A stretch of DNA of 64,000 nt, taken from assembly GCF_014131695.1 (NCBI RefSeq), contig NZ_CP036346.1, forward strand, positions 2,232,001 to 2,296,000, written 5' to 3'. Both the position numbers and the translations under genes were made by a program. How positions within the stretch are numbered: position 1 is the stretch's first letter; the number at the start of each line of letters is the position of its first letter. Below the pieces are notes generated by a model. The model did not search any database. It saw only the letters and a program-made list of their open reading frames with translations, and had not been told where the DNA came from. The DNA is from Thomasclavelia ramosa DSM 1402. Lineage in GTDB: Bacteria; Bacillota_I; Bacilli_A; Erysipelotrichales; Coprobacillaceae. Of the stretch, positions 8,462 through 25,575 are shown in pieces.

Positions 8462-8538
8462 GTTTTTCACCTCTTAATTTAATTATAACAAACCTGTAAA
8501 AAAATAACTACTTGTTTTATAAATGAAATTACTACAAA

Positions 8539-9036
8539 TTAGAACTCAATTCCTTTACGCGCTTTTATTCCTTTATCATATGGATGCTTATGTTTCTTAA
8601 TTTCACTCGAATAATCTAGAATCGGTTTTAATTTATGACTAGGCTGACGCCCTGTTAAAATTACCTCGTGAGTTTCTTTTAAGCTTACCAAGCAATCATA
8701 CACTTTCCCTTCATTTAATAAATTTAAAGCAATTGCATCAAGAATTTCATCTAAAACAATTCCTTCATAACTTTCATCTATTTGTTCAAATAACTCATCT
8801 TCTAAACGACTCACCAATTTTATCATCTCTGGATCATGCATATCAATAAACATCTGAGGCATTTTAGCATACAACACTTTAATTCCACACTTTTTCAGCA
8901 TCTTTATTTCACTGCTGTCACCGTCTTTCAAAAATTGTAGAAATAATACTTTTTTATCTGCCCCAGCCATTCTTAATGCTTGTCCTACTGCAGCAGTAGT
9001 TTTTCCTTTACCATTACCATAATAACATTGAATCAT
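8539..9036 (-). CDS. Corrinoid adenosyltransferase, CobO/BtuR (CobA) family
   Basis: Transfers adenosyl from ATP to cob(I)alamin or corrinoid precursors, giving the coenzyme form of B12. The 165-residue protein opens with the P-loop YYGNGKGKTTAAVGQALRMAG and continues with the VLFLQFLKDG and LDEILDA segments of this family. It is slightly shorter than the Salmonella enzyme, mostly at the N-terminus. It lies two bases after the deacylase gene, so the two are translationally coupled. No B12 synthesis genes are present, but a cobalamin-riboswitch uptake operon lies at 20398-25520, which fits salvage of imported corrinoids. Confidence 0.88.
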   Translation of the reverse strand: MIQCYYGNGKGKTTAAVGQALRMAGADKKVLFLQFLKDGDSSEIKMLKKCGIKVLYAKMPQMFIDMHDPEMIKLVSRLEDELFEQIDESYEGIVLDEILDAIALNLLNEGKVYDCLVSLKETHEVILTGRQPSHKLKPILDYSSEIKKHKHPYDKGIKARKGIEF

Positions 9037-9518: not shown

Positions 9519-9572
9519 AAAAACCTCCTAACAACATTATTATCTTAATCCAAACATAAATTTTAAGCAAAT

Positions 9573-9600
9573 AAAAAGAAGTCCGAGGACTTCTAATTTT
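9573..9600 (-). terminator. Terminator of the HPr gene
   Basis: A perfect 8-bp stem with a two-base centre (AGAAGTCC GA GGACTTCT, 9577-9594) has a T-run on its minus-strand exit and lies just after the ptsH stop codon. Confidence 0.85.
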
Positions 9601-9601
9601 C

Positions 9602-9871: not shown

Positions 9872-9904
9872 TTTATGACTCCTCCTTAAAATTTCTATAA
9901 ATCA

Positions 9905-9910
9905 ATTATA
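9905..9910 (-). promoter_or_regulatory. Probable ptsH promoter -10
   Basis: The minus strand reads GTGTTATAATTG, an extended -10 about 35 bases before the ptsH start. A TTTAAA at the -35 distance is weak. An imperfect dyad AACC-AAGG-GGTT lies in the spacer. Confidence 0.55.
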
Positions 9911-9949
9911 ACACCTAACCCCTTGGTTTTAAAGAACTTTTTACATAAA

Positions 9950-9963
9950 ATTTAGCGCTTACA
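9950..9963 (-). promoter_or_regulatory. cre-like CcpA operator upstream of ptsH
   Basis: The minus strand reads TGTAAGCGCTAAAT, matching the cre consensus core, upstream of the ptsH promoter and downstream of the nahK stop. It would link HPr level to catabolite control; its effect is not readable from sequence. Confidence 0.6.
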
Positions 9964-10007
9964 AATTATTCCCATATATTGCTAAAAATTTACCTTCTTT
10001 AATATAA

Positions 10008-11099
10008 TCACATATATTTTTCAACGATTTTATTCATCATTTCCCATTTTGATTCCATATCTTTAACAAGCTTAAATTGAGTTCTACAACGATCAAGATT
10101 ATGATTCTTGCGATGAATTTTGAAATAAATATCACCCTCCAAATAATCAGTTAAAAAACGTATCCCACATTCAAATGTCATAACCTTAGCCCCGATCGGT
10201 AATGCTTTGATTTCCTCTTTCGTTAATTTACCATCACAACCTTTGATAAAACCTTTAGCATAAATTTCAAACAACGCCATATCACATTCGATTTTATCTA
10301 AATCAATTTCATCCTCTGCCCCTGTACTGGCTCCAAATCGAATCGAATCACCAAAGTCATTGACTGCTAAACCCGGCATAACAGTATCTAAATCAATCAC
10401 ACAAATACCTTTATGAGTTTTATCATCAATCATAACATTATTTAACTTCGTATCATTATGAGTGACCCGTATTGGCAAATTACAATTTGTTAATACATTT
10501 GCCACATCTTCACGAGCTAAAACAAATTCAATCTCTGTTTGAACATCTTTAGCACGATTACAAATATCATTGGCAACTACTTCTTTAAAACGTTCAAAGC
10601 GAGCTTTAGTATCATGAAAACCTTTGATTGTCTCATGAAGTGTTGCTGCCGGATAATCAGCCAAAAGGCTCTGGAAGTGTCCAAAAGCTAATGCACTTTG
10701 ATAAAAATCTTCAGCACTCTCAACTTGATCATAACTAGTTGCACAAGTAATAAATTTGTATGCTCGCCAATATCCACCAGCTGAATCTACATAATATGGT
10801 TTATGATCCAAAGTATAAATAATATTGAGTGTTTCTCTTTCGGGATCACCCTCACTAGCAATAATTTTATCTCGTAAAAATCTTGTTACGTTAGCAATAT
10901 TTTCCATCAATTCAATCGGTTTAGTAAAAACCGCAGTATTCATTCGTTGCAAAATGATATCAATCATTCCCATTCTTTCAATATCAAAAGTCAATAAAAA
11001 TGTATCATTGATATGTCCGCTTCCATAAGGCTTTTTTTTCTTCAACACACCTTCAAATGAAAATGCTTCAACTACTTCGTTTAATAACTCTTCACTCAC
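10008..11099 (-). CDS. nahK: N-acetylhexosamine 1-kinase (APH-fold phosphotransferase)
   Basis: Phosphorylates the anomeric hydroxyl of GlcNAc or GalNAc released from lacto-N-biose or galacto-N-biose. The 363-residue protein matches bifidobacterial NahK along its length as I recall it. The matching segments include PYGSGHINDTFLL near residue 25, IILQRMNTAVF, WRAYKFI, the catalytic loop RVTHNDTKLNNVMID with D216, the metal-binding IDLDTVMPG, DFGDSIRFGAST, and TFECGIRFLTDYLEGDIYF. The start is GTG at 11099, with GGAG eight bases upstream. It is the last gene of the GH112 phosphorylase operon, six bases after the pyrophosphorylase-like gene. General choline/aminoglycoside kinases share the fold, but the context and matches favour NahK strongly. 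Confidence 0.93.
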   Translation of the reverse strand: MSEELLNEVVEAFSFEGVLKKKKPYGSGHINDTFLLTFDIERMGMIDIILQRMNTAVFTKPIELMENIANVTRFLRDKIIASEGDPERETLNIIYTLDHKPYYVDSAGGYWRAYKFITCATSYDQVESAEDFYQSALAFGHFQSLLADYPAATLHETIKGFHDTKARFERFKEVVANDICNRAKDVQTEIEFVLAREDVANVLTNCNLPIRVTHNDTKLNNVMIDDKTHKGICVIDLDTVMPGLAVNDFGDSIRFGASTGAEDEIDLDKIECDMALFEIYAKGFIKGCDGKLTKEEIKALPIGAKVMTFECGIRFLTDYLEGDIYFKIHRKNHNLDRCRTQFKLVKDMESKWEMMNKIVEKYM

Positions 11100-11105
11100 T
11101 ATTGA

Positions 11106-12029
11106 TCACTCCTTCCAAAGATGCTTAGGATAAACACCTGCATCTTTTAATTCTTTAATCGCCATTTGAATTATTGGTTTATCCTCACGATAAGTGACAC
11201 CGTACCAGCGTTCTTGAGACTCTAGAACCGTAACCTCTACCTTATTTTGATCAAGTAATTTACTTACAACTGCAGGAATAAAATACTCACACTTTAACGG
11301 ATTTTCTTTTAAACCGATTTCAAAAAAACTATTTATTCCTTTTTCTATCTCTAATAAGATACTCTTATTATATCCCCAAAGATTCATTGAAACAATTGTT
11401 CCTTTAGGCAGTTCAACCCAACTTTGACCATCATCCTCAGTATACTTTGCACCTGCGCCATTTCGAACAATTTGTGTTCTTTCATGAATATCAACCAGCA
11501 GTTGTTTATCATTTACCTGACAAACACCCCGAGCCACATGACCATTTTCAGTTAATGTATTTTCAATATAATAACCTACCATTGCATAATTATATTTTAC
11601 CCCATCAGGATGATTTAATAGAAAATCATAGATTTGTTTATACGCTGTAACTCCGTAATAATCATCAGCATTAATCACTGCAAATGGCCCATCTATTAAA
11701 TCTTTACAACTCCAAATCGCATGAGCAGTTCCCCATGGTTTCACACGACCAGCTGGTAATGAAAATTCCGCTGGAATATTAGCCAAATCCTGATATACGT
11801 ATTTAACATTCATGATTTGCTCCATTCTATCTCCAATAACTTCTTTAAACTCTTCTTCGTTTTCCTTTTTTATAATAAATATAACAGTTTCAAAACCTGC
11901 TCGTCGAGCATCATAAATCGAAAAATCAATAATTATATGACCATCCTCATCAATTGGATCAATCTGCTTTAATCCGCCATAACGACTCCCCATACCTGCT
12001 GCCATAATTACTAATACTGGTTTATTCAT
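11106..12029 (-). CDS. Nucleotidyltransferase, probable UTP:sugar-1-phosphate uridylyltransferase
   Basis: A 307-residue GT-A fold nucleotidyltransferase. The N-terminal LVIMAAGMGSRYGGLKQIDPI is the nucleotide-binding signature of sugar-1-phosphate pyrophosphorylases. AVINADDYYG carries the metal-binding aspartates, and WGTAHAIW contacts the base in this fold. It sits between GH112 phosphorylase and nahK. In bifidobacteria that position is filled by a GalT-type transferase and an epimerase, so here a UTP-dependent enzyme probably converts HexNAc-1-phosphate (or galactose-1-phosphate) to the UDP-sugar. That substrate is inference. The ATG has AGGAGG upstream. Confidence 0.8.
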   Translation of the reverse strand: MNKPVLVIMAAGMGSRYGGLKQIDPIDEDGHIIIDFSIYDARRAGFETVIFIIKKENEEEFKEVIGDRMEQIMNVKYVYQDLANIPAEFSLPAGRVKPWGTAHAIWSCKDLIDGPFAVINADDYYGVTAYKQIYDFLLNHPDGVKYNYAMVGYYIENTLTENGHVARGVCQVNDKQLLVDIHERTQIVRNGAGAKYTEDDGQSWVELPKGTIVSMNLWGYNKSILLEIEKGINSFFEIGLKENPLKCEYFIPAVVSKLLDQNKVEVTVLESQERWYGVTYREDKPIIQMAIKELKDAGVYPKHLWKE

Positions 12030-12043
12030 TTTTATCCTCCTTT

Positions 12044-12076
12044 TAAAAGACCCACTTTCAAAGAAAATGAGTCTTT
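12044..12076 (-). other. Intercistronic hairpin between GH112 and pyrophosphorylase genes
   Basis: The inverted repeat AAAGACTCA / TGGGTCTTT (one mismatch) lies between the GH112 stop and the next ribosome binding site. It is followed by a short T-run, so it may attenuate transcription or mark an mRNA processing site. Confidence 0.45.
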
Positions 12077-12079
12077 CAA

Positions 12080-14233
12080 TTAAATATCAAGCCAACGCAT
12101 TTCCATTGGTGCTAATCTTAATTTTTCTCGTAAATTTCCTTCTACATATAGATGGGTATCCAGAGCATCTAGTGAGTTATTAATAACTACGATCTTTCCT
12201 ACCGCTTCAAAAGCAGCTACTTCAGCATTGACATTATCTACATAGTATTTTTTCATTTCATCTTCTTTAGCTGCCGCCCAATAGATTGCTCTTAATAATA
12301 AACGACAATTTTGCGGTGAATAAGGAAGTCCAGCTAAATAAACACTACGCCCAGCACCGTAAGTATTTGTAACTAATTGAGCAAACTCTTTATGTTGACG
12401 AATAATTTGATAGTTTTCACCATGTCCATAAATGCTAGCCATTCCTTCACCAAAATCAATTTCTCCTTCAATATCTTCAACAATAAAATGATTAGGATCA
12501 ACTGTATTGTATTTATCATGACTTAATGTAAAGCCAACTTCCTTATCAACACCAAGAACATCACTTAATTGAAAGAATTTTCCCTGATATTGATAAGCGG
12601 TTGGTTCTCCAACCCCGATAAAACCGCCACCATTATCTATCCATTTTCTAATGGTTGTAAGAACCTCTTCATCAATCCAGTTTTCTGCTCCTGACCATGA
12701 TGTGTAAGCCGTACCGGCATTAATAATTACTTTAATATCAGGATTAATTCCTTTTTTTATATCATCAAAATTAATAAACTCAACATCGATCGGCATCCCG
12801 CTTAAACATTCAATTATCCCTACATAAGAATAAATTTCACGATACCAGATAGCATGATGAACCTGATTATTCATCCAACGTCGAATACTTCCCCAACAGT
12901 TTAGTATTGCCACTTTAAATGGAGAGGTATAGGCTTTTGTTTCTTTTGTTAAATCATGAATTTGTCTAAATTCATCAACTACTTGGGTAATTGTATCAAC
13001 AAATCCCGGCCATTCCACTGCCAATTTCAAATATCCTCCATAACCGATTCGATCTAGCGGACTTCTTAAAATAGCTCTTCTTGCTTGTAACCAGTTATCT
13101 TTTGCTTCTTTAATCGGATCACCACCCTCACAGAAAACATCAGGGAAGAAATATGGTAAAAAACGCCCTTCTGTATAACGTACGCCTTTAATATCGGAAA
13201 TCATTCGCATCGTTACACCATTTCCTACAGAACCAACTACAGCATCCAAACCAATTGTTTCAAAATATTTACCATACGGTTCTGTTCCAATCCAATGATC
13301 ACCCAAAAACATCATAGCCTCTTTACCATAACCATGAACAATATCAACTAATTCCTTAGCTAATTTACAAACCTCAATTTGTTGGAACTCAATAAAATCT
13401 TTAAATTGTTTTGATGGTACTCTAAATAATGAATTATGATATCCTTGATCAACAATATATTCAGCGCGCCATTTATAACCTGCCCATTTTTCAAATTGCT
13501 CTAAAATGTAAGGACTAACGCTTGCACTATATCCAAACCATTCTACAAATTTTTCTCTTTTTTGATCATCAAATGTTAAAGTAAATTGATGAAAAAAAGT
13601 GGTGAAACGAATTACATCAACATGTTTATTTTCTTCACAAAATTTCCGTAATTTATCTTTAACAAATTCCTTGGTCTTAGGTTGACGGACATCAAAGGTT
13701 AATTGATGCGGCGCATCTTTCCAATCATTTGTAATAAAATTATACATATGAACAGGATCCCAAATTAAAAATGCCAAAAAACTAACTGTATATTCATGAT
13801 AAGGTATAGTCGAAATTGTTACTGCTCCAACTTCTTTATTAAATTCCCATTGATCAACTGCTACTACTTCACCAGTAGTACGATCAATTACTTCCCACCA
13901 GCGTTTAGGATCATCAATATCATTAACTTTCAGCTGCTGAGTATGAAAACCTTTCATTAACTCAATCGTTAAACTAGTATCACGAGCAGTATAACGGTCC
14001 GTTATCAAATATTCTTGTTGGATCTCGTCTGGATTAGCTTCAGCCCACTCATTATCTTTTCTTGTAGTATAATATGTTGCATATATTTTAGCATCCAAAT
14101 TCATTAATTCTTGAGGCATGTCGGTCCCATCACAATCTCGAATTGCATCAGCCCCAAGTTTATTTTTTAATTCAATCGTTTGGTCAATTACATCTAAATC
14201 AGTAGGTAACGTTAATCTCCCGTATTTTTCCAT
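12080..14233 (-). CDS. 1,3-beta-galactosyl-N-acetylhexosamine phosphorylase, GH112
   Basis: Splits galacto-N-biose and/or lacto-N-biose I with phosphate into galactose-1-phosphate and the free N-acetylhexosamine, an energy-saving route for mucin core-1 sugars and milk oligosaccharides. The 717-residue protein follows the bifidobacterial enzyme closely: GADAIRDCDGTD near 28-38, VDVIRFTTFFHQFTL, the catalytic acid D312 in EAMMFLGDHWIGTEP, GVRYTEGRFLPYFFPD, and RAILRSPLDRIGYGGYL. It lacks a signal peptide and so is cytosolic. It lies two bases downstream of the ABC ATPase gene. Some GH112 members act on galactosyl-rhamnose, but the adjacent nahK argues for the HexNAc type. GNB versus LNB preference cannot be decided here. 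Confidence 0.94.
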   Translation of the reverse strand: MEKYGRLTLPTDLDVIDQTIELKNKLGADAIRDCDGTDMPQELMNLDAKIYATYYTTRKDNEWAEANPDEIQQEYLITDRYTARDTSLTIELMKGFHTQQLKVNDIDDPKRWWEVIDRTTGEVVAVDQWEFNKEVGAVTISTIPYHEYTVSFLAFLIWDPVHMYNFITNDWKDAPHQLTFDVRQPKTKEFVKDKLRKFCEENKHVDVIRFTTFFHQFTLTFDDQKREKFVEWFGYSASVSPYILEQFEKWAGYKWRAEYIVDQGYHNSLFRVPSKQFKDFIEFQQIEVCKLAKELVDIVHGYGKEAMMFLGDHWIGTEPYGKYFETIGLDAVVGSVGNGVTMRMISDIKGVRYTEGRFLPYFFPDVFCEGGDPIKEAKDNWLQARRAILRSPLDRIGYGGYLKLAVEWPGFVDTITQVVDEFRQIHDLTKETKAYTSPFKVAILNCWGSIRRWMNNQVHHAIWYREIYSYVGIIECLSGMPIDVEFINFDDIKKGINPDIKVIINAGTAYTSWSGAENWIDEEVLTTIRKWIDNGGGFIGVGEPTAYQYQGKFFQLSDVLGVDKEVGFTLSHDKYNTVDPNHFIVEDIEGEIDFGEGMASIYGHGENYQIIRQHKEFAQLVTNTYGAGRSVYLAGLPYSPQNCRLLLRAIYWAAAKEDEMKKYYVDNVNAEVAAFEAVGKIVVINNSLDALDTHLYVEGNLREKLRLAPMEMRWLDI

Positions 14234-14235
14234 GT

Positions 14236-15354
14236 CTACTCTCCTTCAATTATAGCTTCTTCACTGTCTATGTCAAAGAAATGCATTTTGTCCATCTTAT
14301 AAGCAAATCTCCCAATTACCCCATTTGTCAGAGTTGTTCCGCCAGGGGCTTTAACAATAAACGGTTTTTCATCTTTAACCATATGGATATAACTTTCAGA
14401 ACCCATAAATTCAACTACTTCTGCTTTCCCCTCAAAACAATCCTCCTGATGCTCATTAATGTAGTCATTATCAACACTGATATCTTCCGGCCTTATTCCC
14501 ATTATTACCGTCTTGCCTAAATATCCTTTTTCTCTAAGCTGCTTAGCTCTAGTTGATTCAACCTTTAAACTAACATCACTCAGTTCAATAATAATAGCAC
14601 CGTCCTTTTCATTAATTTTACCATTTAAAAAATTCATTTGTGGACTCCCAATAAAACCAGCAACAAATTTATTGACGGGATGATTGTATAAATATGCTGG
14701 TGATGCTACTTGTTGAATCCGACCATCTTTCATCACAACAATTCTTGTTCCCATCGTCATCGCTTCAGTTTGATCGTGAGTCACATAAATAAATGTTGTT
14801 CCTAATTGCTGATATAATTTTGAAATCTCTGTTCGCATCTGAACTCTTAATTTAGCATCTAAATTACTCAATGGCTCATCCATTAAAAATACTTTTGGTT
14901 CTCGAACGATTGCTCGCCCTAATGCTACCCGTTGTCTTTGTCCACCGGATAAAGCTTTAGGCTTACGATCTAAATATTGTTCTATATCTAAAGCTTTAGC
15001 TGCTTTACGAACCTTTTGATCAATTTCATCTTTTGGCTTTTTTGCTATTTTTAAACCAAAAGCCATGTTATCATATACACTCATATGAGGATATAATGCA
15101 TATGATTGAAACACCATTGCAATATCTCGATTTTTTGGAGCCACATCATTCATCAATTTTCCATCTATATATAGCTCTCCTGCTGAAATTTCTTCTAATC
15201 CCGCAATCATTCTAAGTGTAGTACTCTTCCCACAACCAGAAGGACCAACAAAAACAATAAATTCCTTATCTGCGATTTCTAGATTAAAATCAAATACAGC
15301 TTGAACATTATTATCATATATCTTATCAATATGTTTTAAGCTTAAATTCGCCAT
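14236..15354 (-). CDS. Sugar ABC transporter ATPase, MsmX/UgpC type
   Basis: The cytosolic ATPase of a class I carbohydrate ABC importer. The 372-residue protein has Walker [10 protein letters not shown] (37-45), the signature LSGGQ (135-139), Walker B FLMDEP (DE at 159-160) and the H-loop [14 protein letters not shown]-terminal OB-type regulatory domain follows (IMGIRPEDI). MsmX-type ATPases often serve several sugar importers; this one lies inside the GNB/LNB operon between the permease and phosphorylase genes and so presumably powers that transporter. The ATG follows AAAGGAG. Sharing with other systems cannot be excluded. Confidence 0.93.
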
Positions 15355-15366
15355 CTTGTTTCTCCT

Positions 15367-15534
15367 TTACTTATAGCCTTTATTATATGTGTAAATTACT
15401 CCGATCAATCCAGCTAAGCCCACCAGTTCAGTCGCTAATCCTGTATAACCAACATTTTTTTGTCCAATAAAAATCAAAGCCATTGAAACTATAAATACAA
15501 CAACCATGATAATTATTTTAGTTTTTCCATCCAT
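15367..15534 (-). CDS. Small 55-residue membrane protein in the sugar ABC operon
   Basis: A short gene with a clear GAGGAG site six bases before its ATG at 15534. The protein begins MDGKTKIIIMVVVFIVSM and has two hydrophobic helices (about 6-24 and 30-49) around a short polar loop, ending YTYNKGYK. It lies 11 bases after a permease gene and 12 before the ATPase gene, in step with the operon. It may belong to the small DUF6903-type family, though I am not sure of that assignment. A role in assembly or stability of the transporter is only a guess. Good ribosome binding and tight packing make it a real gene. Confidence 0.8.
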   Translation of the reverse strand: MDGKTKIIIMVVVFIVSMALIFIGQKNVGYTGLATELVGLAGLIGVIYTYNKGYK

Positions 15535-15545
15535 AGTTTTCTCCT

Positions 15546-16421
15546 CTAATCTTTCAATCCACCCAAGGTCATTCCTTGTGTAAGTTTCTTTTGAACTATA
15601 ATATATAGAATCAACGTTGGCAGCATAACTACTACTAATCCAGCATACATCATACCATACTCAGCCTTCCCCCGGGTTGCCTGCATCAAATTCAACAATC
15701 CTACAGGTAATGTTTTTGAAGTACTTGGTAATAATGTCAAGGCAATAATATATTCATTCCAAAATGCTAAAAAATTAAATAAAATTACAGTAATAATACT
15801 TGGTTTTGCCATGGGAATCATTACTCTAACCATTGTTTTATAATATCCACATCCATCTATTAACGCTGCTTCTTCATAAGCCTTTGGTAAAGTCTTAAAA
15901 TAACCACTTAATAAATAAACGGTAAACGGAATAGCTGTCGCTGCGTATACAACAGCTAAAACAAAAATATTATTTAAAAAGAAATTTCCTCCGAGTAATT
16001 CATAAATAAAATCATCCCAATCTAATAACATTAAAAAGATAGGTACAACAATATAATTTACATTAATAAATAACCCTGCCATAAATAAGGTGTTAAAAAA
16101 TCTTCTTCCCTTAAAATTATAACGCGCCAATACATACGCCGCTGGTAATGAAACGACTAATAAAATCACCAGTGCCATCGCTGTTGTTAAAATAGAATTA
16201 AGTAAATATTCTCCCATATTCGCTTGTTCAAATGCATTAACAAAGTTTTGCAAATAGATTCCTGCCGGAATAGACCAGGGATTTCCATAAAACTCAGAAT
16301 TCTCTTTGATTGAAGCCATAAATACCCATGCTACCGGTACAATAATAGAAACCGCAAGAGTAATCAAAGCTACATAAATAAATATTTTATAAAGTTTATC
16401 ACTGCTAAATAACTTTTTCAT
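15546..16421 (-). CDS. Sugar ABC transporter permease, MalG/LacG type
   Basis: One of two inner permease subunits of the GNB/LNB importer. The 291-residue protein has six hydrophobic segments and the cytoplasmic EAA loop EEAALIDGCGYYKTMVRVMIPMAKP (about 195-220) that docks on the ATPase. The C-terminus GMTLGGLKD is typical of MalG-type subunits. The ATG follows AAAGGAG. It is 14 bases after the MalF-type permease gene. Family assignment is firm; substrate is taken from the operon. Confidence 0.92.
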   Translation of the reverse strand: MKKLFSSDKLYKIFIYVALITLAVSIIVPVAWVFMASIKENSEFYGNPWSIPAGIYLQNFVNAFEQANMGEYLLNSILTTAMALVILLVVSLPAAYVLARYNFKGRRFFNTLFMAGLFINVNYIVVPIFLMLLDWDDFIYELLGGNFFLNNIFVLAVVYAATAIPFTVYLLSGYFKTLPKAYEEAALIDGCGYYKTMVRVMIPMAKPSIITVILFNFLAFWNEYIIALTLLPSTSKTLPVGLLNLMQATRGKAEYGMMYAGLVVVMLPTLILYIIVQKKLTQGMTLGGLKD

Positions 16422-16435
16422 TTTCCTGCTCCTTT

Positions 16436-17332
16436 CTATAACTCTAACGTATCACGCTCTGTAGCACGATTAATAATAAAACTCAAAATAAATGAAAAAA
16501 TAAAAACTACTGCGGCAATCGCCATTCCATATCCATATGATGCGTTGTTATAAGCTTGTTTATATAAATAACTTAAGACCGTTTCACTAGCTCCATCAGG
16601 TCCACCACTAGTCATAACTTTAACAAATAAAAAACTTAAGTTAATCGTCGAAATAATAAAGAAAGTTAAAGTTGTTCGGATATTATCCCAAATCAAAGGT
16701 AGTGTAATTGAAAAAAATTGTTTGATTTTCCCAGCTCCATCAAGTGCTGAAGCTTCATACAAGTGTTCGGGAATCGAACTCATCGAAGCCATGTACATAA
16801 CCATATAATAACCTATAGCTTGCCATATCATTGTTCCTATGATGGCATAAATAACAATACTTTGATCTCCAAGAAACTTAACAGTTTCCCAGCTTTCTGG
16901 TTTAAATAACATTAAAACACTATTGATCATACCATTTTCTGAGGGATCATAGATTGCAGAAAAAATCGAAGAGATAACGACTACTGATAATATATTAGGA
17001 ATATAAAAAATTACCCGAAAGAAATTTTGTCCTTTTATTTTTTCTCTAACTAAAATCGAAGCAAAAAGAATTGCTACAGCCATCGTAATTACAGTTACAA
17101 CCGCAATAATCAAAATGGTATTTTGTAAAGCACGAATAAAATTCATATCTTGCATTAATAACACAAAATTATTAAATCCAACAAAAGTCTTATCGGCTGA
17201 TAGCCCGCCCCATTTTAATGTTGACATCCAAAAGACATTAAGGGTCGGCAAAATCATGAACACTCCAAATAAGATTACCGCTGGGGCAAGGCATAAAATA
17301 ATGAATCTGCGTCTTTCTTTTTTCTTATTCAT
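16436..17332 (-). CDS. Sugar ABC transporter permease, MalF/LacF type
   Basis: Second permease subunit of the same importer. The 298-residue protein starts with a lysine-rich cytosolic tail and has six membrane segments. Its EAA motif, EHLYEASALDGAGKIKQFFSITLPLI, lies at about 190-215. It follows the binding-protein gene after a strong intercistronic hairpin and precedes the MalG-type gene. The ATG follows AGTAGGTG. No truncation is seen. Confidence 0.92.
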   Translation of the reverse strand: MNKKKERRRFIILCLAPAVILFGVFMILPTLNVFWMSTLKWGGLSADKTFVGFNNFVLLMQDMNFIRALQNTILIIAVVTVITMAVAILFASILVREKIKGQNFFRVIFYIPNILSVVVISSIFSAIYDPSENGMINSVLMLFKPESWETVKFLGDQSIVIYAIIGTMIWQAIGYYMVMYMASMSSIPEHLYEASALDGAGKIKQFFSITLPLIWDNIRTTLTFFIISTINLSFLFVKVMTSGGPDGASETVLSYLYKQAYNNASYGYGMAIAAVVFIFSFILSFIINRATERDTLEL

Positions 17333-17351
17333 TGCTGCACCTACTTTCTAA

Positions 17352-17380
17352 AATAGCGGTGGAATGACACCACCGCTATT
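17352..17380 (-). other. Intercistronic stem-loop after the binding-protein gene
   Basis: A perfect 11-bp stem (AATAGCGGTGG / CCACCGCTATT) with a 7-base loop lies between the binding-protein stop and the first permease. Such hairpins commonly protect the upstream mRNA, or partly terminate, so that binding protein outnumbers permeases. No long T-run follows on the minus strand. Confidence 0.75.
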
Positions 17381-17393
17381 ATTTTATCAATTA

Positions 17394-18743
17394 TTATTTG
17401 TCGTATTTTTTAACAGCATCAATCACAGCATTATACCATTCATCAACTGTTTTATCTCCTGTTACAACAGAATTAACTGTTCCATAAAGAATACCTTCAG
17501 CACTAGTTAGATCAACCCCTTCAATTGCATCAACAGATTTAAATCCAACCGTACAACTCTTAGCCCCATTATCATAAATTTGGTAGAATAGTGTTTTTTG
17601 ATTATCAATTTCATTACCATCTTTATCTTTTACTTTTTCTGGTAAATATGATGAAGCAGTTGTAGTTGGTAAAACGCATCCAGATTCTTCAGCAAATAAT
17701 TTTGCAGCTTCGTCACTGTACATAAATGTAATAAATTTTTTAGCCAAATCAGCATTTTTGGCTTTTGAAGGAATATATACTTGTTCAGAGAATGTAGAAG
17801 AATATGAATCTCCTTCTGCACTTACTTTTGGTAATGCCATAAATCCCCATTTGAAACCTTCAGCACGTGGTGCTTCAGACATTTCATCTGGCAACCAAGT
17901 ACCATTTGGACAGAATAATGCTTTATTATCTAAAATTAATTGTTGATTTTTTGTGAAATTATCTTTATTAGCATTTGCAACCGTATTAGCTTCAGTATAT
18001 TGTGCTAATTTTCCGACTATTTCAAATGCTTTTTTAGTTTCAGCAGATTGCCATGTTTTAGTATCATATTCCATTAACTTAGTATAAGCGTCAGCACCTA
18101 CAGTTTCGTTTAATAACGCTGAGAAAAAAGCATCAAAATATCCAGTTGTTGGATAAGTGAATAAAGCAATTCCTTCTGCCTTTGCTTTTTCACCTAATTC
18201 CCACATCTCATCCCAAGTTGTTGGAACTGTCCAACCTTTTTGTTCAAATAAACCAGCATTATAGAATAAGCCGCAAGGATCATAAGTAAATGGTGCTAAA
18301 TATAATTTTCCATCACCATATGGCTTAGTTGCAAATGAATTAGTAAATCCAGGGATAATTTTATCTTTAACTTTTACATCTTCACCATAAACTTTCATAT
18401 CTAAAACATCACTGATTTCAGCGATTGCTTTATCAGAAATCATTGTATCTACTAAACCACCTTCAGATCCTACTGATAAATAAATCAAATCAGGTACATC
18501 TTTTCCTGAAGTAATTACCGGTCTTAAAGTTTCAGCAATATTTTTTTCTAAATTTAATTCAACTTTAACCCCTTCTTTTTTTTCAAAAGCCTTAACTACA
18601 GCTTCCCATCCTTTTGTCCCATAACCACCATTTAGTCCCGAAATTTTTAAAGTATTGGTGTCATCTGATTTCCCGCCACCACAACCAGTCAGCATCCCTG
18701 CTGCTAACGATAATACAAGGGCAGTACTTAAAATTTTCTTCAT
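17394..18743 (-). CDS. Sugar-binding lipoprotein, ABC importer family 1
   Basis: Extracellular solute-binding lipoprotein that captures the disaccharide for the adjacent importer. The 449-residue precursor starts with a signal peptide and lipobox LTGC (Cys at about 21), followed by a GGGKSDD linker and a family-1 binding fold (LKISGLNGGYGTKGWEAVVKAFEKK). It is the first gene of the GNB/LNB operon. The ribosome binding site AAGGAGG is 12 bases from the ATG, somewhat far. A cre-like site overlaps its promoter and an AraC gene is divergent. Ligand specificity is inferred from the GH112 and nahK genes downstream. Confidence 0.92.
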   Translation of the reverse strand: MKKILSTALVLSLAAGMLTGCGGGKSDDTNTLKISGLNGGYGTKGWEAVVKAFEKKEGVKVELNLEKNIAETLRPVITSGKDVPDLIYLSVGSEGGLVDTMISDKAIAEISDVLDMKVYGEDVKVKDKIIPGFTNSFATKPYGDGKLYLAPFTYDPCGLFYNAGLFEQKGWTVPTTWDEMWELGEKAKAEGIALFTYPTTGYFDAFFSALLNETVGADAYTKLMEYDTKTWQSAETKKAFEIVGKLAQYTEANTVANANKDNFTKNQQLILDNKALFCPNGTWLPDEMSEAPRAEGFKWGFMALPKVSAEGDSYSSTFSEQVYIPSKAKNADLAKKFITFMYSDEAAKLFAEESGCVLPTTTASSYLPEKVKDKDGNEIDNQKTLFYQIYDNGAKSCTVGFKSVDAIEGVDLTSAEGILYGTVNSVVTGDKTVDEWYNAVIDAVKKYDK

Positions 18744-18789
18744 AATATTCGTTTTCCTCCTTGTTTATTATGATTAATTACAACTAAAT

Positions 18790-18813
18790 TATATTTTAAT
18801 GTAAGCGCTTTTA
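18790..18813 (-). promoter_or_regulatory. GNB/LNB operon promoter region with cre-like site in the spacer
   Basis: The minus strand carries TGTAAGCGCTTTTA on the complementary reading (18800-18813), an excellent cre match, directly upstream of a TATAAT (about 18790-18795). Binding there would cover the -35 to -10 spacer, so CcpA repression is likely. Confidence 0.75.
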
Positions 18814-18926
18814 CTAGGCGATAATTGCTTACTTTTTTATATATCTTGCTTTATTTTATTATAAAAATATAAAAATTTATATAAATTTGACGTTATATTA
18901 GTTATAATAAACTCGAGGTGAAAATT

Positions 18927-19769
18927 ATGAGCAATGAAAGAATTGAATTTATCGAAAAGCCGGCATTAATTAATAATCAAGCTCGCTTACTATATGTTAG
19001 TAGTTCAAAATATGAAGGTGACTGGCATTCTCAGTTACACTCCCATCACTTTACTGAATTATTTTATGTAACTAAAGGATGCGGTGGCTTTAAAATCGGA
19101 GCAGACGAATTTAATGTTCAAGAAAATGATTTTGTTATTATCAACCCTAACACGATGCATACTGAAGTTTCTCGTGATCGAAATCCATTGGAATATATTG
19201 TAATTGCTATTGATGGGATTAGTTTTGAAATACCTGAGAATAGTTTAAAAGATTATATTAGCTGTAATTATGCTAATTATAAAAATGAGATTCTTTTTTA
19301 CTTAAATTTAATGGTAAAAGAATCACAAGCTAAGAATGAACTATATGATGATATGTGCCAACAACTAATGCAAGTCTTACTAATAAATATTTTAAGATTA
19401 AATCGTATTAATGTATCTTTAACACAAGGTAAGACTATTCGCAAGGAAATCTTTATGATCAAGAACTACATTGATCGTAATTACCATAAAGAAATAACTT
19501 TGGATACTTTAGCTGAAAAAACTCATATGAATAAATTCTATCTTGCTCATGAATTTAAAAATGATGTCGGTGTTTCACCAATCAGCTATCTACTTCAGCG
19601 AAGAATATATGAGAGCAAATATTTACTTAGAGATACCGACCTATCAATTTCACAGATTTCAACAATTCTTGGTTTCTCCTCGCTTTCATATTTTGCTCAA
19701 GCATTTAAAAAAAGTACAAATTTTTCTCCTTTACAATATCGTAAAAACCACCAAAAATATAATAAATAA
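18927..19769 (+). CDS. AraC-family regulator, divergent from the GNB/LNB operon
   Basis: A 280-residue regulator with an N-terminal cupin-like sensor domain (HHFTELFYVTKGCGGFKIG, about 40-60) and a C-terminal double helix-turn-helix (LAEKTHMNKFYLAHEFKN and ISQISTILGFSSLSYFAQAFKK). I chose the ATG at 18927 because GAGGTG lies six bases upstream. Its divergent position makes it the likely activator of the disaccharide operon, with the sugar or a metabolite as ligand; that is inference. Its terminator is interrupted by an IS remnant. Confidence 0.9.
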   Translation: MSNERIEFIEKPALINNQARLLYVSSSKYEGDWHSQLHSHHFTELFYVTKGCGGFKIGADEFNVQENDFVIINPNTMHTEVSRDRNPLEYIVIAIDGISFEIPENSLKDYISCNYANYKNEILFYLNLMVKESQAKNELYDDMCQQLMQVLLINILRLNRINVSLTQGKTIRKEIFMIKNYIDRNYHKEITLDTLAEKTHMNKFYLAHEFKNDVGVSPISYLLQRRIYESKYLLRDTDLSISQISTILGFSSLSYFAQAFKKSTNFSPLQYRKNHQKYNK

Positions 19770-20399
19770 AAAAGTGCTTTTGTAGTGCCCCGAAAAGTTG
19801 GACACGTTAAATTAAAGTTAGATCTTGAAAGGATTGTTGTCTATATACAAGTGGACTCAATCCTTTTCTTTTTGTATTGATTCTCTCGTTATTATAATAT
19901 TCGATATATTCACTCATTGCAGCTTTGAATTGTTCATGCAATTTTCTTTATCACTTAACCATTTTTGATAGGCTTTATGCTGTGACAATGTCATTCTTGA
20001 TCTAAATGAAAGATTAATCCTTTAAGGTTTGAATAATAATTGCAAACTAAGATGTTCAGTTTTTTATTAATACATCGTCCTATACTGGCAGCTAAAGCTA
20101 CTAACCGATAATTTTCTCTGTTTCCAACTCTATTTATCAGTTCCATTTTTTGTTCGATGGATAAAGTCAGCTTATATGTTCTAATTTTATTCCACTCGTT
20201 GAGTCAAAAATCCTTATGACATACACCCGATAGATCTTTTAGATATTCCCATCCTTATATTTTTAAATATATTTTAATTTAAATTTTTTACTATTCCGTA
20301 TAAAAAGTGACCTCCTTTTTGATGTGTACCTTCTTTACTGGACAAACCAGTAAGGAGGGTACATATCATTTTGGGGGTCACTACATTTTACACTTTTTT
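19768..20399. terminator. Bidirectional terminator split by an IS remnant
   Basis: AAAAAAGTG (19768-19776) and CACTTTTTT (20391-20399) are perfect inverted arms at the ends of two convergent genes, now 614 bases apart with an IS3-type relic between them. Removing the insert leaves a short bidirectional terminator. TTT next to both ends of the insert fits a 3-base target duplication. Confidence 0.6.
19781..20385 (-). mobile_element. Decayed IS3-family element remnant
   Basis: The ends TGTAGTGCCCC (19781-19791) and GGGGGTCACTACA (20373-20385) are inverted terminal repeats like those of the copy at 62405-63724. On the minus strand, broken frames still read transposase pieces: GNRENYRLVALAASIGR, GLIFHLDQE and, near the end, YIEYYNNERINTKRKGLSPL, the usual C-terminus of IS3/IS150 OrfB. 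Large internal deletions and stops make it inactive. The orientation is minus. A dyad (TTACTGG/CCAGTAA) near 20335-20360 matches the leader hairpin of the other copy. Confidence 0.85.
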
Positions 20400-21519
20400 A
20401 AGATTCTTTTCTAATAAACAAATACATTCCACCACTAATAATCAATGAAGATACTGTTAGTGCAATGACTGCATCATCACCTGTCTTAACTGATGTAATT
20501 GACTTATCAGCAGGTGTAGATGGTGTAACCGGAGCAGGAGCTGGTGTTGGTTCTGGCTGATCATTTTTAGGATTCAACATCTCATCATATTGAGCTTTAA
20601 TATTGTCAATTAAGGAACCATTTTCATATACCCCAACAGTAAGGGCCGCTTGAACTGTTGCATAAGCATTGCCATAATCTACATCTAAACTAGCGCCAAA
20701 TGAACCATCTTCTTGCATAAATTGTAATAATAGATCATATGGATTGCCTGTACCCTTATTGTAAGTACCATTTTTTACACCTTGAATATCGTATTCTAAA
20801 ATTCCCCATACGGCACAAGCTTGACTATTACAATTAACGCCAAAGCCACTATAACCGCCATTATCAATTTGAATTGATGCTAAATAAGCTAAAGCTTTAT
20901 CAATTGAAGCCTGATATGTATTGTTGCATAATGAAAGAGCAGCTAATGCCCATCCAGTAATATCAGGTCCACCCCAAGCTCCATTATAGCCCCAAGAGCC
21001 ATCACTAAGCTGCATCTCAGTCAAGTTTAATCCTAGTTTATCAAGATTATAACTTTCATCAACAATAGCTAAGGCAAACATTGTATATGCAGTACTTGAT
21101 TCTGGATTTGCTGACCCATAATCAACATTACCATTTTCATCAATTTTTGATTTTAATAAATCAATTAGATTAATCGTTGAACCATCTTTTAGTTTTAACT
21201 TAGCAGGATCTGATTTTATTGCCGCTAAAGCCATAATATTTTTAGCCAAATAACCAGCATCCATTTCTTCATAAGTAATTTCATCACCATAAGAATTTGT
21301 TGGTGCTTCAAAAGAATAGTTTAAAGTAAAATTATTCTTTTCATCTTCAACATCTAATCCTAAAGATTCTACAGCCAAAACGGCATCCAGTCCAGATAAT
21401 TCATTGTTATTCAACCAATAGCTTTGAGCTTTGGCTAAAGTTGAAGATTGCGCATTGATTGGCACAATGCAAGCACAAACAAGCGCTAACGCCACAGTAA
21501 ACCGCATTAATTTTTTCAT
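20398..21519 (-). CDS. Secreted alpha/alpha-barrel (prenyltransferase-repeat) protein, transcobalamin alpha-domain-like, surface anchored
   Basis: A 373-residue exported protein. Residues 1-24 are a signal peptide. The body has repeats of the alpha/alpha-toroid type, with glycine-aromatic turns DGSWGYNG, NGGYSGFG and DGSFGASL, each followed by a helix like ITGWALAAL, as in the squalene-cyclase/cobalamin-binding superfamily. A Pro-rich linker (EPTPAPAPVTPSTP) and the tail VKTGDD + hydrophobic helix + RKES then anchor it at the envelope. It is the last gene of a riboswitch-controlled ECF operon, overlapping the S-component stop by ATGA. With the DUF4430 lipoprotein of the same operon it would supply the two domains of transcobalamin. 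B12 binding is inference. Confidence 0.8.
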   Translation of the reverse strand: MKKLMRFTVALALVCACIVPINAQSSTLAKAQSYWLNNNELSGLDAVLAVESLGLDVEDEKNNFTLNYSFEAPTNSYGDEITYEEMDAGYLAKNIMALAAIKSDPAKLKLKDGSTINLIDLLKSKIDENGNVDYGSANPESSTAYTMFALAIVDESYNLDKLGLNLTEMQLSDGSWGYNGAWGGPDITGWALAALSLCNNTYQASIDKALAYLASIQIDNGGYSGFGVNCNSQACAVWGILEYDIQGVKNGTYNKGTGNPYDLLLQFMQEDGSFGASLDVDYGNAYATVQAALTVGVYENGSLIDNIKAQYDEMLNPKNDQPEPTPAPAPVTPSTPADKSITSVKTGDDAVIALTVSSLIISGGMYLFIRKES

Positions 21520-22205
21520 TCAATTTTTCCCTCCGTTATTCCATATTTTATTTTTACCCTTTGTAAGATCTGAAACATCGTCTTACTAAGTAAAAACATA
21601 AAAATTATATTTGAAACAATATATATTAACGTCGTTGGTAATGAAGTTAATACTATTGCCAAATATCGTGTTAAATTAAAACTTGTTTCAAAAGCAAGAA
21701 CTGACCATAAATCCATTACCATGGAAAAAGCAAGTCCACAAATAGCACTATATCCATATAATAAAAATTTATTTTTAAACAAATTTTTACTAAAAATTCC
21801 AGCTCCATAACCAATTATTCCCCATGCGATCATTTGGAATGGAGTCCATGGTCCTATTCCAAAAACAAAGTCTGATAATGTTGCTGACAACGACCCACAC
21901 ATAAAACCAGATGCCGGACCAAAAACTATCCCACAAATAATAACCATTGCAGTTACAGGTTTAAAACTGGGTGTTAACATAAAAATCGTTCTAGAAACAA
22001 CTGTTAGGGCAATCATTGTTGCCAAAACCACAACTTCCCTTATTTTAGGTTTGCTATTTTCATATTTAAAATAAAATGGTAAACAAGATAATGCGAACGA
22101 AGCAATAATAATTAAATTATATTTTTCACCTTTATATAAAACAGTTCCTAAGATCGTTATTAAAACAATAACCATTAAAATAAAGATACTTTTTTTTATT
22201 TTCAT
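21516..22205 (-). CDS. ECF transporter S component, probably for cobalamin (CbrT-like)
   Basis: A 229-residue integral membrane protein with about six to seven hydrophobic segments. It shows the S-component style FKPVTAMVIICGIVFGPASGFMCGSLSATLSDFVFGIGPWTPFQ (central region), which resembles CbrT-type substrate-binding subunits. It sits directly after the double ATPase gene (ATGA overlap) and before the barrel protein. The upstream cobalamin riboswitch points to B12 or a corrinoid precursor as the substrate. Family assignment is good; substrate is inferred from regulation. Confidence 0.85.
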   Translation of the reverse strand: MKIKKSIFILMVIVLITILGTVLYKGEKYNLIIIASFALSCLPFYFKYENSKPKIREVVVLATMIALTVVSRTIFMLTPSFKPVTAMVIICGIVFGPASGFMCGSLSATLSDFVFGIGPWTPFQMIAWGIIGYGAGIFSKNLFKNKFLLYGYSAICGLAFSMVMDLWSVLAFETSFNLTRYLAIVLTSLPTTLIYIVSNIIFMFLLSKTMFQILQRVKIKYGITEGKIE

Positions 22206-23719
22206 AACCCTAAATCCTCTAATAAAACAACTTCAGAGTTATTATTTCTTACTATTTTATTAATCGTTGTAGTATAAAATAAATTATTACTAAAGAAATT
22301 TCGCATCGAGTCTACTGATTCCATTTGTCCATTAAAAATCATAGCAACTCGATCACTTATTTTAGCGACAAATTCTAAATCATGACTAACAACAATTATC
22401 GTCATATGTTTGCTTAAACTACGAATCAAACTCGCCAAATTATCTTTGCTCACTGCATCTATTCCTTTAGTAGGTTCATCTAATAACAACAATTGCGGTC
22501 TTGTCAGTAAAACTTTTCCTAATGCCAATAATTGCTTTTGACCACCGCTCAAATCAAACGGGTGCATATCTCGTAAATTACTAATTCCAATATTCTCCAT
22601 TTCAATTTCAACTGTTTTTAAATTATTTTCTACTACTAATAATTCATTTATAACTTTATCGGTTATAAACAATGTTGTGGGATCCTGGGGTAAATAACCA
22701 ATTTTTTCTACAACTCCTACTTTAGTTATATTACCTTGATACTTAACTAACCCTGCGATACATTTCAAAAATGATGATTTCCCACTACCGTTAGCTCCTA
22801 CTACTGATAATATCTCATTTTGTCTAACATCTAAATCAAGATTTTCTAAAACCGTACTATCGTAGGCAAAGCTCAAATCACGAATTTTCAATAAAAGTCC
22901 AGTATCGACAACCTCCTGCTCCTTAATATCAAAATCATGATAGTCTTTTAGTGCTTCACGTGCTTGTTTTACAGTTAAACAAAGTGCATTAGCTAATGTT
23001 GAAACTCGTACATAATTAGGTAAAGCAGCTACAAAAACATCCTCTGTTAACATCTTTTTTACTGCCTTTTCAATTTGATCATCAATAACTTTTTGGCCAT
23101 GATCAAGCAAAATCAAACGATTTGCAACATCCAACAAGCCTTCTAATTGATGTTCAACTAAAATAATCGTAATATCAAAATCATCATTTAGCTGTTTTAA
23201 AATTCTAATAAATTCATCACGATTAACTGGATCTAACTGAGCCGTAGCTTCATCAAGTAAGATAACACTAGGATTCATTACCATTACACTAGCTAAATTA
23301 ACAAGTTGTTTTTCTCCGCCAGATAATGATTGTGTATCATTGTTAATAATATTTTGTAAATTAAAATAATTAACAATTTCACCTACTCGACGTTTCATTT
23401 GTTTTAAGGGGATTGCCTGATTTTCAAGTCCAAAAGCAATTTCATGCCAAACCTTATCCATAACAATTTGATCATCAGGGTTTTGAAAAACAAAGCCAAT
23501 CTGAATATCTTTTTTTATTTGTTCGTCTAGTTCAATTGTTCCTTCAAGTGTTCCTGTCGGTTGTAAACTTGATTTTAACAATCTCAACAATGTTGTTTTG
23601 CCACAACCACTCTCGCCACAAATAACAACAAAATCCCCTTTATTTATTTCAAAGGAAAGGTTATCAATCACTTTTTCATTATCAGGATAAGTAAAACATA
23701 CATTTTTTACTTTATACAT
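22202..23719 (-). CDS. ECF transporter ATPase, two ATPase domains fused
   Basis: A 505-residue protein carrying two complete ABC ATPase domains, the equivalents of separate EcfA and EcfA'. Domain 1 has Walker A GESGCGKTT (35-43) and LSGGE (132-136) with LLDEATAQLDP. Domain 2 has GANGSGKSS (308-316) and LSGGQ (390-394) with LLDEPTKGID. The fusion means each complex carries its own dedicated ATPase pair rather than using a shared EcfAA'. It overlaps the T-component stop by eight bases. No catalytic residue appears missing in either half. Confidence 0.93.
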   Translation of the reverse strand: MYKVKNVCFTYPDNEKVIDNLSFEINKGDFVVICGESGCGKTTLLRLLKSSLQPTGTLEGTIELDEQIKKDIQIGFVFQNPDDQIVMDKVWHEIAFGLENQAIPLKQMKRRVGEIVNYFNLQNIINNDTQSLSGGEKQLVNLASVMVMNPSVILLDEATAQLDPVNRDEFIRILKQLNDDFDITIILVEHQLEGLLDVANRLILLDHGQKVIDDQIEKAVKKMLTEDVFVAALPNYVRVSTLANALCLTVKQAREALKDYHDFDIKEQEVVDTGLLLKIRDLSFAYDSTVLENLDLDVRQNEILSVVGANGSGKSSFLKCIAGLVKYQGNITKVGVVEKIGYLPQDPTTLFITDKVINELLVVENNLKTVEIEMENIGISNLRDMHPFDLSGGQKQLLALGKVLLTRPQLLLLDEPTKGIDAVSKDNLASLIRSLSKHMTIIVVSHDLEFVAKISDRVAMIFNGQMESVDSMRNFFSNNLFYTTTINKIVRNNNSEVVLLEDLGL

Positions 23720-24584
23720 TTTTCTTTCCTCCTAAATAAATTGGTAATAACATTAATCCTATATAAACTAGCATAAATAAACCATCTTGCCACTGTAAAC
23801 TAAATTCTTGAATAAGTGGAAAATAATAAAAACTACGATAGCGGATTAAAAATCCTAATAAACTTATCATAAATAGTCCTATTATTACTATTAATTTTAA
23901 AGCATCATCTTTTCTAAAACTATACAGATGAAAACTAGTTCGCTTACCTTGTCCATAACCCCTAGCTTGCATTGAATTCATCATATCAAGCGATGATTCA
24001 AAAGCATATGTAACTAATACAACTATCATATTTCGGTAGTAACCCAACTTATTTTGACTGGGCATATTTATATTAGCCTCTCTAATTTTTTGATATTGAT
24101 TTTTTAATTTACTAATCATATTCAAACACATCGATATAACTAACCCTAAGGTAGGTAATATTGAACCAAATAAATAAACAATATGACTATCTGTTAAGCA
24201 TGTTTTCATTATGCGAAACCACAATAACATGCATGATAACAGCAAGCCAAATACTAATCCATAAAATAGAGCTTGTTTAGTAATCGTGACATAGTCATTT
24301 TGAAACCAAATATCAAATCCTTCCGTTACAAATAAAGGATTTGTAATCATTATAATAACCACCAAAACAACAGTATATTTCATATCTTTAAAAAAAGTTA
24401 GGTAATTAAAATAATAATCAATTATTATCGCACTAACTATCGACAAAATGATTAAATAATAATTTTGTTGAATAATTGTTAGAGTAATAACTGAAAGAAA
24501 ATAAGCAAATAATACTACTGGATGACTATTTTTAAAAGGTTTGATTACTAATTTGTTTTTTATTATATTAATTTTACTGAGCAT
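23712..24584 (-). CDS. ECF transporter T component
   Basis: The 290-residue transmembrane coupling subunit of the ECF importer. It has several hydrophobic segments and the conserved cytoplasmic region with QARGYGQGKRTSFHLYSF (about 210-228), which contains the Ala-Arg-Gly signature that docks on the ATPases. It begins directly after the lipoprotein stop and overlaps the ATPase gene start. Assignment is firm by motif and context. Confidence 0.9.
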   Translation of the reverse strand: MLSKINIIKNKLVIKPFKNSHPVVLFAYFLSVITLTIIQQNYYLIILSIVSAIIIDYYFNYLTFFKDMKYTVVLVVIIMITNPLFVTEGFDIWFQNDYVTITKQALFYGLVFGLLLSCMLLWFRIMKTCLTDSHIVYLFGSILPTLGLVISMCLNMISKLKNQYQKIREANINMPSQNKLGYYRNMIVVLVTYAFESSLDMMNSMQARGYGQGKRTSFHLYSFRKDDALKLIVIIGLFMISLLGFLIRYRSFYYFPLIQEFSLQWQDGLFMLVYIGLMLLPIYLGGKKNV

Positions 24585-25304
24585 TTAAACATCCCCTTGT
24601 TTGCAAGTAAAACGCCATTCTATTTTATCACCATCTTTTAATCGATAAGAACTTGCACCATATTCAGGAAAATTACCATTAACTTTATACATCCAGCCAC
24701 TCGATGAACCGCATATTTTTTCTTCAATTTGACCAATCCCTTTTACATAGAGCCCAAAACCTGAAGAAACAGTAACCAGTTTTATCTCATTTTCACTTGT
24801 TGCTTTCTTTAAAACATCTATTACGGTTGTATTTTTTTTAACTTTAAATTGTTCAGTACTAAGAATCATTCCATTAGTTGGGATAAATTGTTCATAACCA
24901 TCTTTTAGATCATTCATATTATTTAAAATTGTTTTACAATCAATTGAAATGCTAACATTAATCATTTGATTATCATTATCAGCTGGCTTATTATTTGGAG
25001 AATTATCTTTATTACCAGCATCAGTATTAGCACCATCATTAGATGTCTGATTAGAATCTAAAGCAGAACTATTTGTTCCCTTATTATGCTCATCACCAGC
25101 ATCTGTAGCGCTATCTGTCTGACTATTTTCACTTATGACTGTTACATTACCAGCTGCATCAATTGTTGCTGTCACCTCATTAGCCCATTGTTGTTCAGTT
25201 GATTCTGTTTTGGTTTTCACAATATTATTGCCCTTTGTTACTGTTCCACATCCAGTCAATAAAACCAAGATAAATACTAATGAAATTTTTAAATATTTTG
25301 ACAT
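24585..25304 (-). CDS. DUF4430 lipoprotein, transcobalamin beta-domain-like
   Basis: A 239-residue lipoprotein. The signal peptide ends at the lipobox LLTGC (Cys at about 19). Residues 50-110 are a low-complexity Ser/Asn/Asp/Thr linker. Residues 115-235 match the DUF4430 fold, ending SSGWMYKVNGNFPEYGASSYRLKDGDKIEW. That ending recalls the C-terminal domain of transcobalamin and intrinsic factor, where a YW...NG...GI.DY.P.DGE pattern occurs. It is the first gene after a cobalamin riboswitch and abuts the ECF T gene. I infer an external corrinoid-binding role together with the barrel protein at 20398. Confidence 0.85.
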   Translation of the reverse strand: MSKYLKISLVFILVLLTGCGTVTKGNNIVKTKTESTEQQWANEVTATIDAAGNVTVISENSQTDSATDAGDEHNKGTNSSALDSNQTSNDGANTDAGNKDNSPNNKPADNDNQMINVSISIDCKTILNNMNDLKDGYEQFIPTNGMILSTEQFKVKKNTTVIDVLKKATSENEIKLVTVSSGFGLYVKGIGQIEEKICGSSSGWMYKVNGNFPEYGASSYRLKDGDKIEWRFTCKQGDV

Positions 25305-25324
25305 AATAAAAGACCCTTTCTAAA

Positions 25325-25520
25325 AAATGGCGCACAAAAGGATCACGTTTATGTAGAACTACTCTATCGTCCGTAAAGTGTATCCTAAGATAATGGCAAG
25401 TATTCCGGCTTAGATTCATCGTCTTAACACCTTCCCAGTTTTCACCAGTGGTCTATCGTCTTAACTCCTCATTACGGCGGCGGGACCGCTCTTGCTTCTA
25501 ACAAGATTCCTTATTAATGT
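25325..25520 (-). ncRNA. Cobalamin (B12) riboswitch
   Basis: The minus-strand leader of the ECF operon holds the landmarks of the cobalamin aptamer: a GAGCGGTCCCGCCGCC-type helix near 25490, GACCACTGGTGAAA, GGGAAGGTG, GATGAATCTAAGC and the B12 box CGGAATACTTGCC (25395-25407). The aptamer core is 25395-25515. The remaining 70 bases to the start codon hold the expression platform, where pairing could hide the AAAGGG ribosome binding site. A 64-codon open frame overlapping it is not a gene. It would repress the operon when B12 is plentiful. Confidence 0.9.
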
Positions 25521-25575
25521 ACAACAACCATTAAATATGCGTTATTAAATTACTTTAATTATACAATAAAGAATC

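Follow-up and report, generated by a model that had tools for sequence, protein, structure and literature searches.

Extracellular proteins akin to the vertebrate B12 carriers were recognised in bacteria by Burroughs et al. (2007; PMC1796856), who defined a transcobalamin-like SLBB clade with alpha/alpha-toroid fusions in bacteria, found its genes sharing operons with those for CbiO/CbiQ-like transporters in bacteria that lack B12 synthesis, and proposed both a role in B12 scavenging and that animals received the toroid-SLBB form by transfer. The scavenging role and the idea of an ancestor of the animal carriers are thus already in print; we found no experimental test of the 2007 prediction in the open literature. 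In vertebrate transcobalamin, intrinsic factor and haptocorrin a toroid fold and a transcobalamin-type beta domain are joined in one soluble chain. Among bacterial importers, the energy-coupling factor (ECF) transporter ECF-CbrT of Lactobacillus delbrueckii (PDB 6FNP) has demonstrated transport activity for both cobalamin and cobinamide (PMC5997447), and in Bacteroides the surface lipoprotein BtuG captures B12 before import and feeds the outer-membrane transporter BtuB (PMC6143338). Here we describe an operon of Thomasclavelia ramosa DSM 1402, contained in a 64-kb stretch of contig NZ_CP036346.1 (the window), in which a cobalamin riboswitch precedes genes for a lipoprotein with a DUF4430 domain, an ECF importer with its T, ATPase (AA') and substrate-binding S components, and a separate exported toroid protein.

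The locus shares with the transcobalamin-like SLBB clade an extracellular SLBB/DUF4430 domain, a toroid, an operon of the CbiO/CbiQ type and a host without B12 synthesis genes, so that the split pair, the riboswitch and the CbrT-type S component together are a variant of the system proposed in 2007. In that work, however, the toroid is fused to SLBB, whereas here the two are encoded by separate genes; the operons were tied to CbiO/CbiQ, with no riboswitch or CbrT-type S component; and an SLBB-propeller fusion was mentioned but not the replacement of the toroid by a propeller in the same slot. The open literature, in a search outside which most subscription journals lie, yielded no description of a split, differently anchored toroid/DUF4430 pair, of its riboswitch, of a CbrT-type S component in such an operon or of toroid/propeller exchange. 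In contrast to the single soluble chain of the vertebrate carriers, we find two separately anchored chains with the T, A and S genes between them, which are 13–25% identical to the vertebrate proteins over the aligned parts and may bind B12. CbrT relies on a shared ECF module (group II), while the S component of the window, which most resembles CbrT, has a dedicated T component and AA' ATPase in the same operon, accompanied by two surface proteins. We consider it reasonably likely that the toroid and the DUF4430 protein form a two-part, transcobalamin-like capture system feeding an ECF importer for intact cobamide.

The riboswitch (25547–25378) covers RF00174 completely (model positions 1–189) and scores 92 bits against a gathering threshold of 31.5 (E 1.6e-21) in the covariance search; it is the only copy in the whole 3.25-Mb genome. 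Its end lies 74 nt from the first ATG of the operon, and the gaps at the DUF4430/T/AA'/S/toroid junctions are 0, -8, -4 and -4 nt (Table 1). The identical order recurs in four genomes of the same genus and therefore is not due to chance, and T-component homologues, 53–65% identical, occupy the same operon slot in relatives. With S, T and two ATPase domains encoded within one operon, this is a group I ECF arrangement. A first-pass annotation of the window had described a cobalamin riboswitch leading five overlapping or abutting genes, and this description holds, gene anatomy included, except that the riboswitch end was placed at 25520, 27 nt short.

Table 1. Features of the B12 operon and the linked adenosyltransferase gene; coordinates are positions in the 64-kb window, and all operon parts lie on the minus strand.
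Feature	Position	Strand	Evidence
Cobalamin riboswitch, operon leader	25378..25547	-	RF00174, full model, 92 bits
DUF4430 (transcobalamin beta / SLBB-type) lipoprotein	24585..25304	-	PF14478 E 4.9e-19, lipobox LLTGC
ECF T component (EcfT/CbiQ-like)	23712..24584	-	PF02361 (CbiQ) E 7.2e-5, slightly below cut-off
Double ECF ATPase (A and A' fused)	22202..23719	-	two ABC_tran stretches, E 1.3e-51; TIGR04520 E 1.8e-93, slightly below cut-off
ECF S component, predicted cobalamin-specific (CbrT-like)	21516..22205	-	PF07155 (ECF-ribofla_trS) E 5.4e-18
Exported alpha/alpha-toroid protein, Pro-rich linker, sortase-type VKTGD tail	20398..21519	-	Prenyltrans E 2.2e-5, slightly below cut-off
cobA/btuR corrinoid adenosyltransferase, functionally linked	8539..9036	-	PF02572 E 5.3e-47

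Four independent lines, namely the riboswitch, the CbrT-like S component, the genome content and the gene linkage, point to B12 as the substrate, and the operon almost certainly imports it, as the first-pass annotation had proposed. Among PDB chains, the window S component comes closest to 6fnp_A of the ECF-CbrT structure (E 1.1e-4; the next S component is at 0.18), and the S component of a sister operon with the order riboswitch-toroid-DUF4430-S (L101) matches the same chain at E 3.5e-24. The genome encodes a MetH-type protein, a corrinoid protein and a B12-binding radical SAM protein, while CbiD and CobS were searched for in this genome and not found; since MetH and CobA are present without these two, the organism must import B12, and as it could scarcely build B12 from cobinamide, it probably needs intact cobamide. 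In same-genus genomes ybaK and cobA directly follow the toroid gene, within about 0.5 kb, and in three sister-genus loci (L023, L024 and L026) the methionine synthase gene metH lies directly upstream of it.

The lipoprotein has its lipobox followed by an Asn/Ser-rich spacer of about 90 residues and the DUF4430 domain at residues ~113–239. Its model is of high quality (pLDDT 92.7, pTM 0.86), and all Foldseek matches with E <0.001 are transcobalamin, intrinsic factor, haptocorrin or the Ruminococcus gnavus protein 3u7z. In VIA-align the Z-scores are 14.9 for haptocorrin, 14.3 for intrinsic factor and 13–14 for transcobalamin, with rmsd (root-mean-square deviation) values of 1.6–2.1 over 99–106 residues for these B12 carriers, and 12.6 for 3u7z, a solved bacterial relative, before the scores drop to 8.5 for unrelated beta-grasp proteins. 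At the sequence level the transcobalamin beta domain is the best PDB chain in phmmer, weakly (E 0.038), and a profile of 22 DUF4430 sequences had zero matches to PDB sequences up to E 1. The predicted structure thus supports the kinship with the beta domain of transcobalamin and intrinsic factor on which the first-pass annotation had built.

That the two proteins are partners is suggested by their fusion on one chain in other lineages, which is the best available evidence for the two domains working together. In distant members of the class (L122, L124, L125, L126 and L131) riboswitch-led lipoproteins of ~385–445 residues carry DUF4430 and then a toroid, the DUF4430 matches in several of them being slightly below the Pfam cut-off, and behind each come genes for a second, small DUF4430 protein and for a putative S component. 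A 1218-residue protein from sheep-gut Clostridia (L031) and a 949-residue protein from Moorella (L033) combine DUF4430, toroid and SLH repeats on one chain, and downstream of the former lie genes for CobA, T and an A-S fusion. That fusion is an 892-residue open reading frame (L031:11810-14488) joining the double ECF ATPase and S in one frame, which could be real or a sequencing artefact. A further DUF4430 domain picked by eye at residues 335–475 in L031 was dropped, as hhalign did not support it. Some of the fused lipoproteins in L122–L131 have a coiled-coil-like spacer at the N-terminus; three DUF4430 repeats occur in L130, and in L129 a protein with three DUF4430 domains stands behind a cobalamin riboswitch.

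The expected co-occurrence of DUF4430 and toroid behind cobalamin riboswitches is also found. Counting only matches that span the toroid (26 from the first search and the more distant G046 and G053; weak profile matches in the order, mostly to the shared C-terminal anchor alone, were excluded), 28 of the 196 genomes of the order have a toroid. DUF4430 is present in 27 of these 28 versus 41 of the 168 toroid-less genomes (Fisher p 1e-13, uncorrected for relatedness), and in the lone exception (G067) the toroid locus, L025, ends at a contig edge. The riboswitch was detected in 18 of the 28 toroid genomes, and by comparison of coordinates it adjoins the toroid/DUF4430 operon in all 18. Two gene orders exist: DUF4430-T-AA'-S-toroid in the genus of the window, and riboswitch-toroid-DUF4430-S, as abutting genes, in sister genera, where DUF4430 has an N-terminal membrane helix as anchor and the S component presumably uses a shared ECF module. 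No relatives were found in viral contigs. The window genome encodes a single DUF4430 protein, which leaves it as the only candidate partner for the toroid.

Several observations weigh against a clamp formed by the two proteins. The toroid model, built from only six distant sequences, is of moderate confidence (pLDDT 65.7, pTM 0.67, with a core at 80–90). The first-pass annotation had likened this protein to the transcobalamin alpha domain, and as far as the fold goes this stands, since transcobalamin occupies ranks 1–3 in Foldseek (best E 9.5e-4); a specific kinship with the B12 carriers is less certain, because the toroid has no match up to E 1 to PF01122, the eukaryotic cobalamin-binding protein family, and the scores of cyclases equal or exceed those of the B12 binders. 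In VIA-align squalene-hopene cyclase (1sqc) reaches Z 18.3, haptocorrin 17.0 and intrinsic factor 16.5, and the profile search against the PDB has its best matches in squalene-hopene cyclases (E 5e-18). The modelled fold is therefore an alpha/alpha toroid, yet a generic one, which alone cannot single out B12 carriers. In a relative (L032) there is a weak PF01122 match (E 0.0021), and the matches of its toroid to PDB sequences include no B12 binder. Since the two domains are not on one chain and the PF01122 match is missing, we do not file the pair in the transcobalamin family. Their anchors differ as well. The toroid ends in SVKTGDD, a hydrophobic stretch and RKES; this VKTGD tail is conserved with variation among toroids and is common to other large proteins of the genome, which encodes two sortases, and with such a motif, hydrophobic stretch, basic tail and genomic sortase the protein is predicted to be sortase-anchored at the surface. 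The DUF4430 partner is held by lipid, and the two need not come into contact.

Relatives lacking the toroid likewise speak against an obligatory clamp. In L083, L084 and L090–L095 the riboswitch, DUF4430 and a predicted S component occur without a toroid; such a toroid-less set, with a short DUF4430 protein, is found in another family of the order and is followed in L093 by methionine synthase. The S candidates in L083, L084, L093 and L099 (no Pfam match) and in L122 (no PDB match) are called S by position and resemblance only. In L067, L068 and L070, from the same genus, and in L075–L077 and L082 a PQQ/BamB-like beta-propeller sits in the toroid's slot after S and ends in a VKTGD/VETGD or IPNTGD-type anchor, the operons being otherwise identical. 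Capture of B12 by a surface protein before import would be a strategy analogous to that of BtuG, but the profile of these propellers matches BamB and designed propellers, and BtuG was absent among the matches. Those of L075–L077 have an extra DUF4430-like N-terminal stretch. DUF4430 and S look like the constant core of the system, and the toroid like an outer part for which at least one other module can be exchanged. Beside this, group II intron fragments (RF01998, RF02001) lie directly 3' of the propeller gene in L070 (2539-2833; G003), and in L132 a DUF4430-T-A-S operon is closely followed by a gene (6836-9001) whose product has a PI-PLC-X domain and a ricin-type lectin stretch.

Could the DUF4430 lipoprotein then serve the S component by itself, either as a tethered lid or by delivering B12 to it, with the toroid an exchangeable wall module that gathers corrinoid or a corrinoid-loaded protein and never enters a closed complex? 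The riboswitch-DUF4430-S unit is constant across the order and the class, while the last slot varies between toroid, similarly anchored propeller and nothing; the loci with a fused DUF4430-toroid lipoprotein keep a second, stand-alone DUF4430 beside S, and the difference between lipid and sortase-type anchors fits as well. However, the repeated fusions and the animal carriers argue for cooperation of the two domains on one ligand, and a second DUF4430 protein is absent from the window genome. We regard this alternative as rather unlikely.

The remaining alternatives touch the ligand and the toroid itself. If B12 were the regulator only, the operon could import cobalt, cobinamide or another nutrient: the T component is CbiQ-like, the S domain matches a model of the riboflavin family, and for archaeal SLBB proteins a role in scavenging metabolites other than B12 has been suggested (PMC1796856). 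But the operon has no CbiM, the cobalt S component, its S component is nearest to CbrT, without CobS and CbiD cobalt or cobinamide would not readily be made into B12, and MetH adjoins the sister loci mentioned above, all of which makes a non-cobamide substrate very improbable. It is more far-fetched still that the toroid is an enzyme, such as a terpene cyclase-like one, without any link to B12 handling. This is what the cyclase matches in the profile search and in VIA-align would suggest, but none of the 26 aligned toroids keeps the DXDD motif of the cyclases: T, I, V or M follows the conserved Asp, and the first Asp is variable. A cyclase is unlikely for this reason and because the protein is predicted to be secreted and wall-anchored; moreover, the toroid is always found in this operon.

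Returning to the two-part capture system, it would work like a split transcobalamin in front of an ECF importer. We infer that low intracellular cobalamin lets the riboswitch permit expression of the operon. Outside the membrane, the wall- or membrane-anchored toroid and the lipid-anchored DUF4430 protein would represent the two halves of the capture device, in which the toroid would hold the corrin and the DUF4430 domain would come into contact with it, either closing over the corrin or taking it over. B12 would then be handed by DUF4430 to the CbrT-type S component and driven across the membrane by the T/AA' module, after which CobA would adenosylate it for use by MetH and other B12 enzymes. 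More tentatively, B12 capture in Gram-positive bacteria may be modular, with DUF4430 and the CbrT-type S component constant and with exchangeable collectors at the wall, for which an intrinsic-factor-like toroid and a BamB-type propeller are the two options; the animal carriers could then perhaps be a frozen, one-chain version of the bacterial two-part receptor.

In the window itself a 10.9-kb block (9519-20397) separates the toroid gene from ybaK-cobA. It encodes a lacto-N-biose phosphorylase, an APH-fold sugar kinase, a nucleotidyltransferase, a sugar ABC importer and an AraC regulator, and is apparently an insertion of a host-glycan operon, for mucin or milk sugar. At its edge (19800-20390, minus strand) there are frame-broken pieces such as EYIEYYNNERINTKRKGLSPLVYRQQSFQ, which by eye look like a decayed IS3-type transposase.

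Little is settled about how Gram-positive gut bacteria capture extracellular B12, and a 2019 survey named B12 transport in many gut genomes as an open problem (PMC6593275). The locus offers a compact, riboswitch-marked and testable set of genes in this respect, and the exchange of toroid and propeller in one slot would reveal which half does the essential work. If the two proteins do close on B12 together, the descent proposed in 2007 for transcobalamin and intrinsic factor would gain a living two-chain counterpart.

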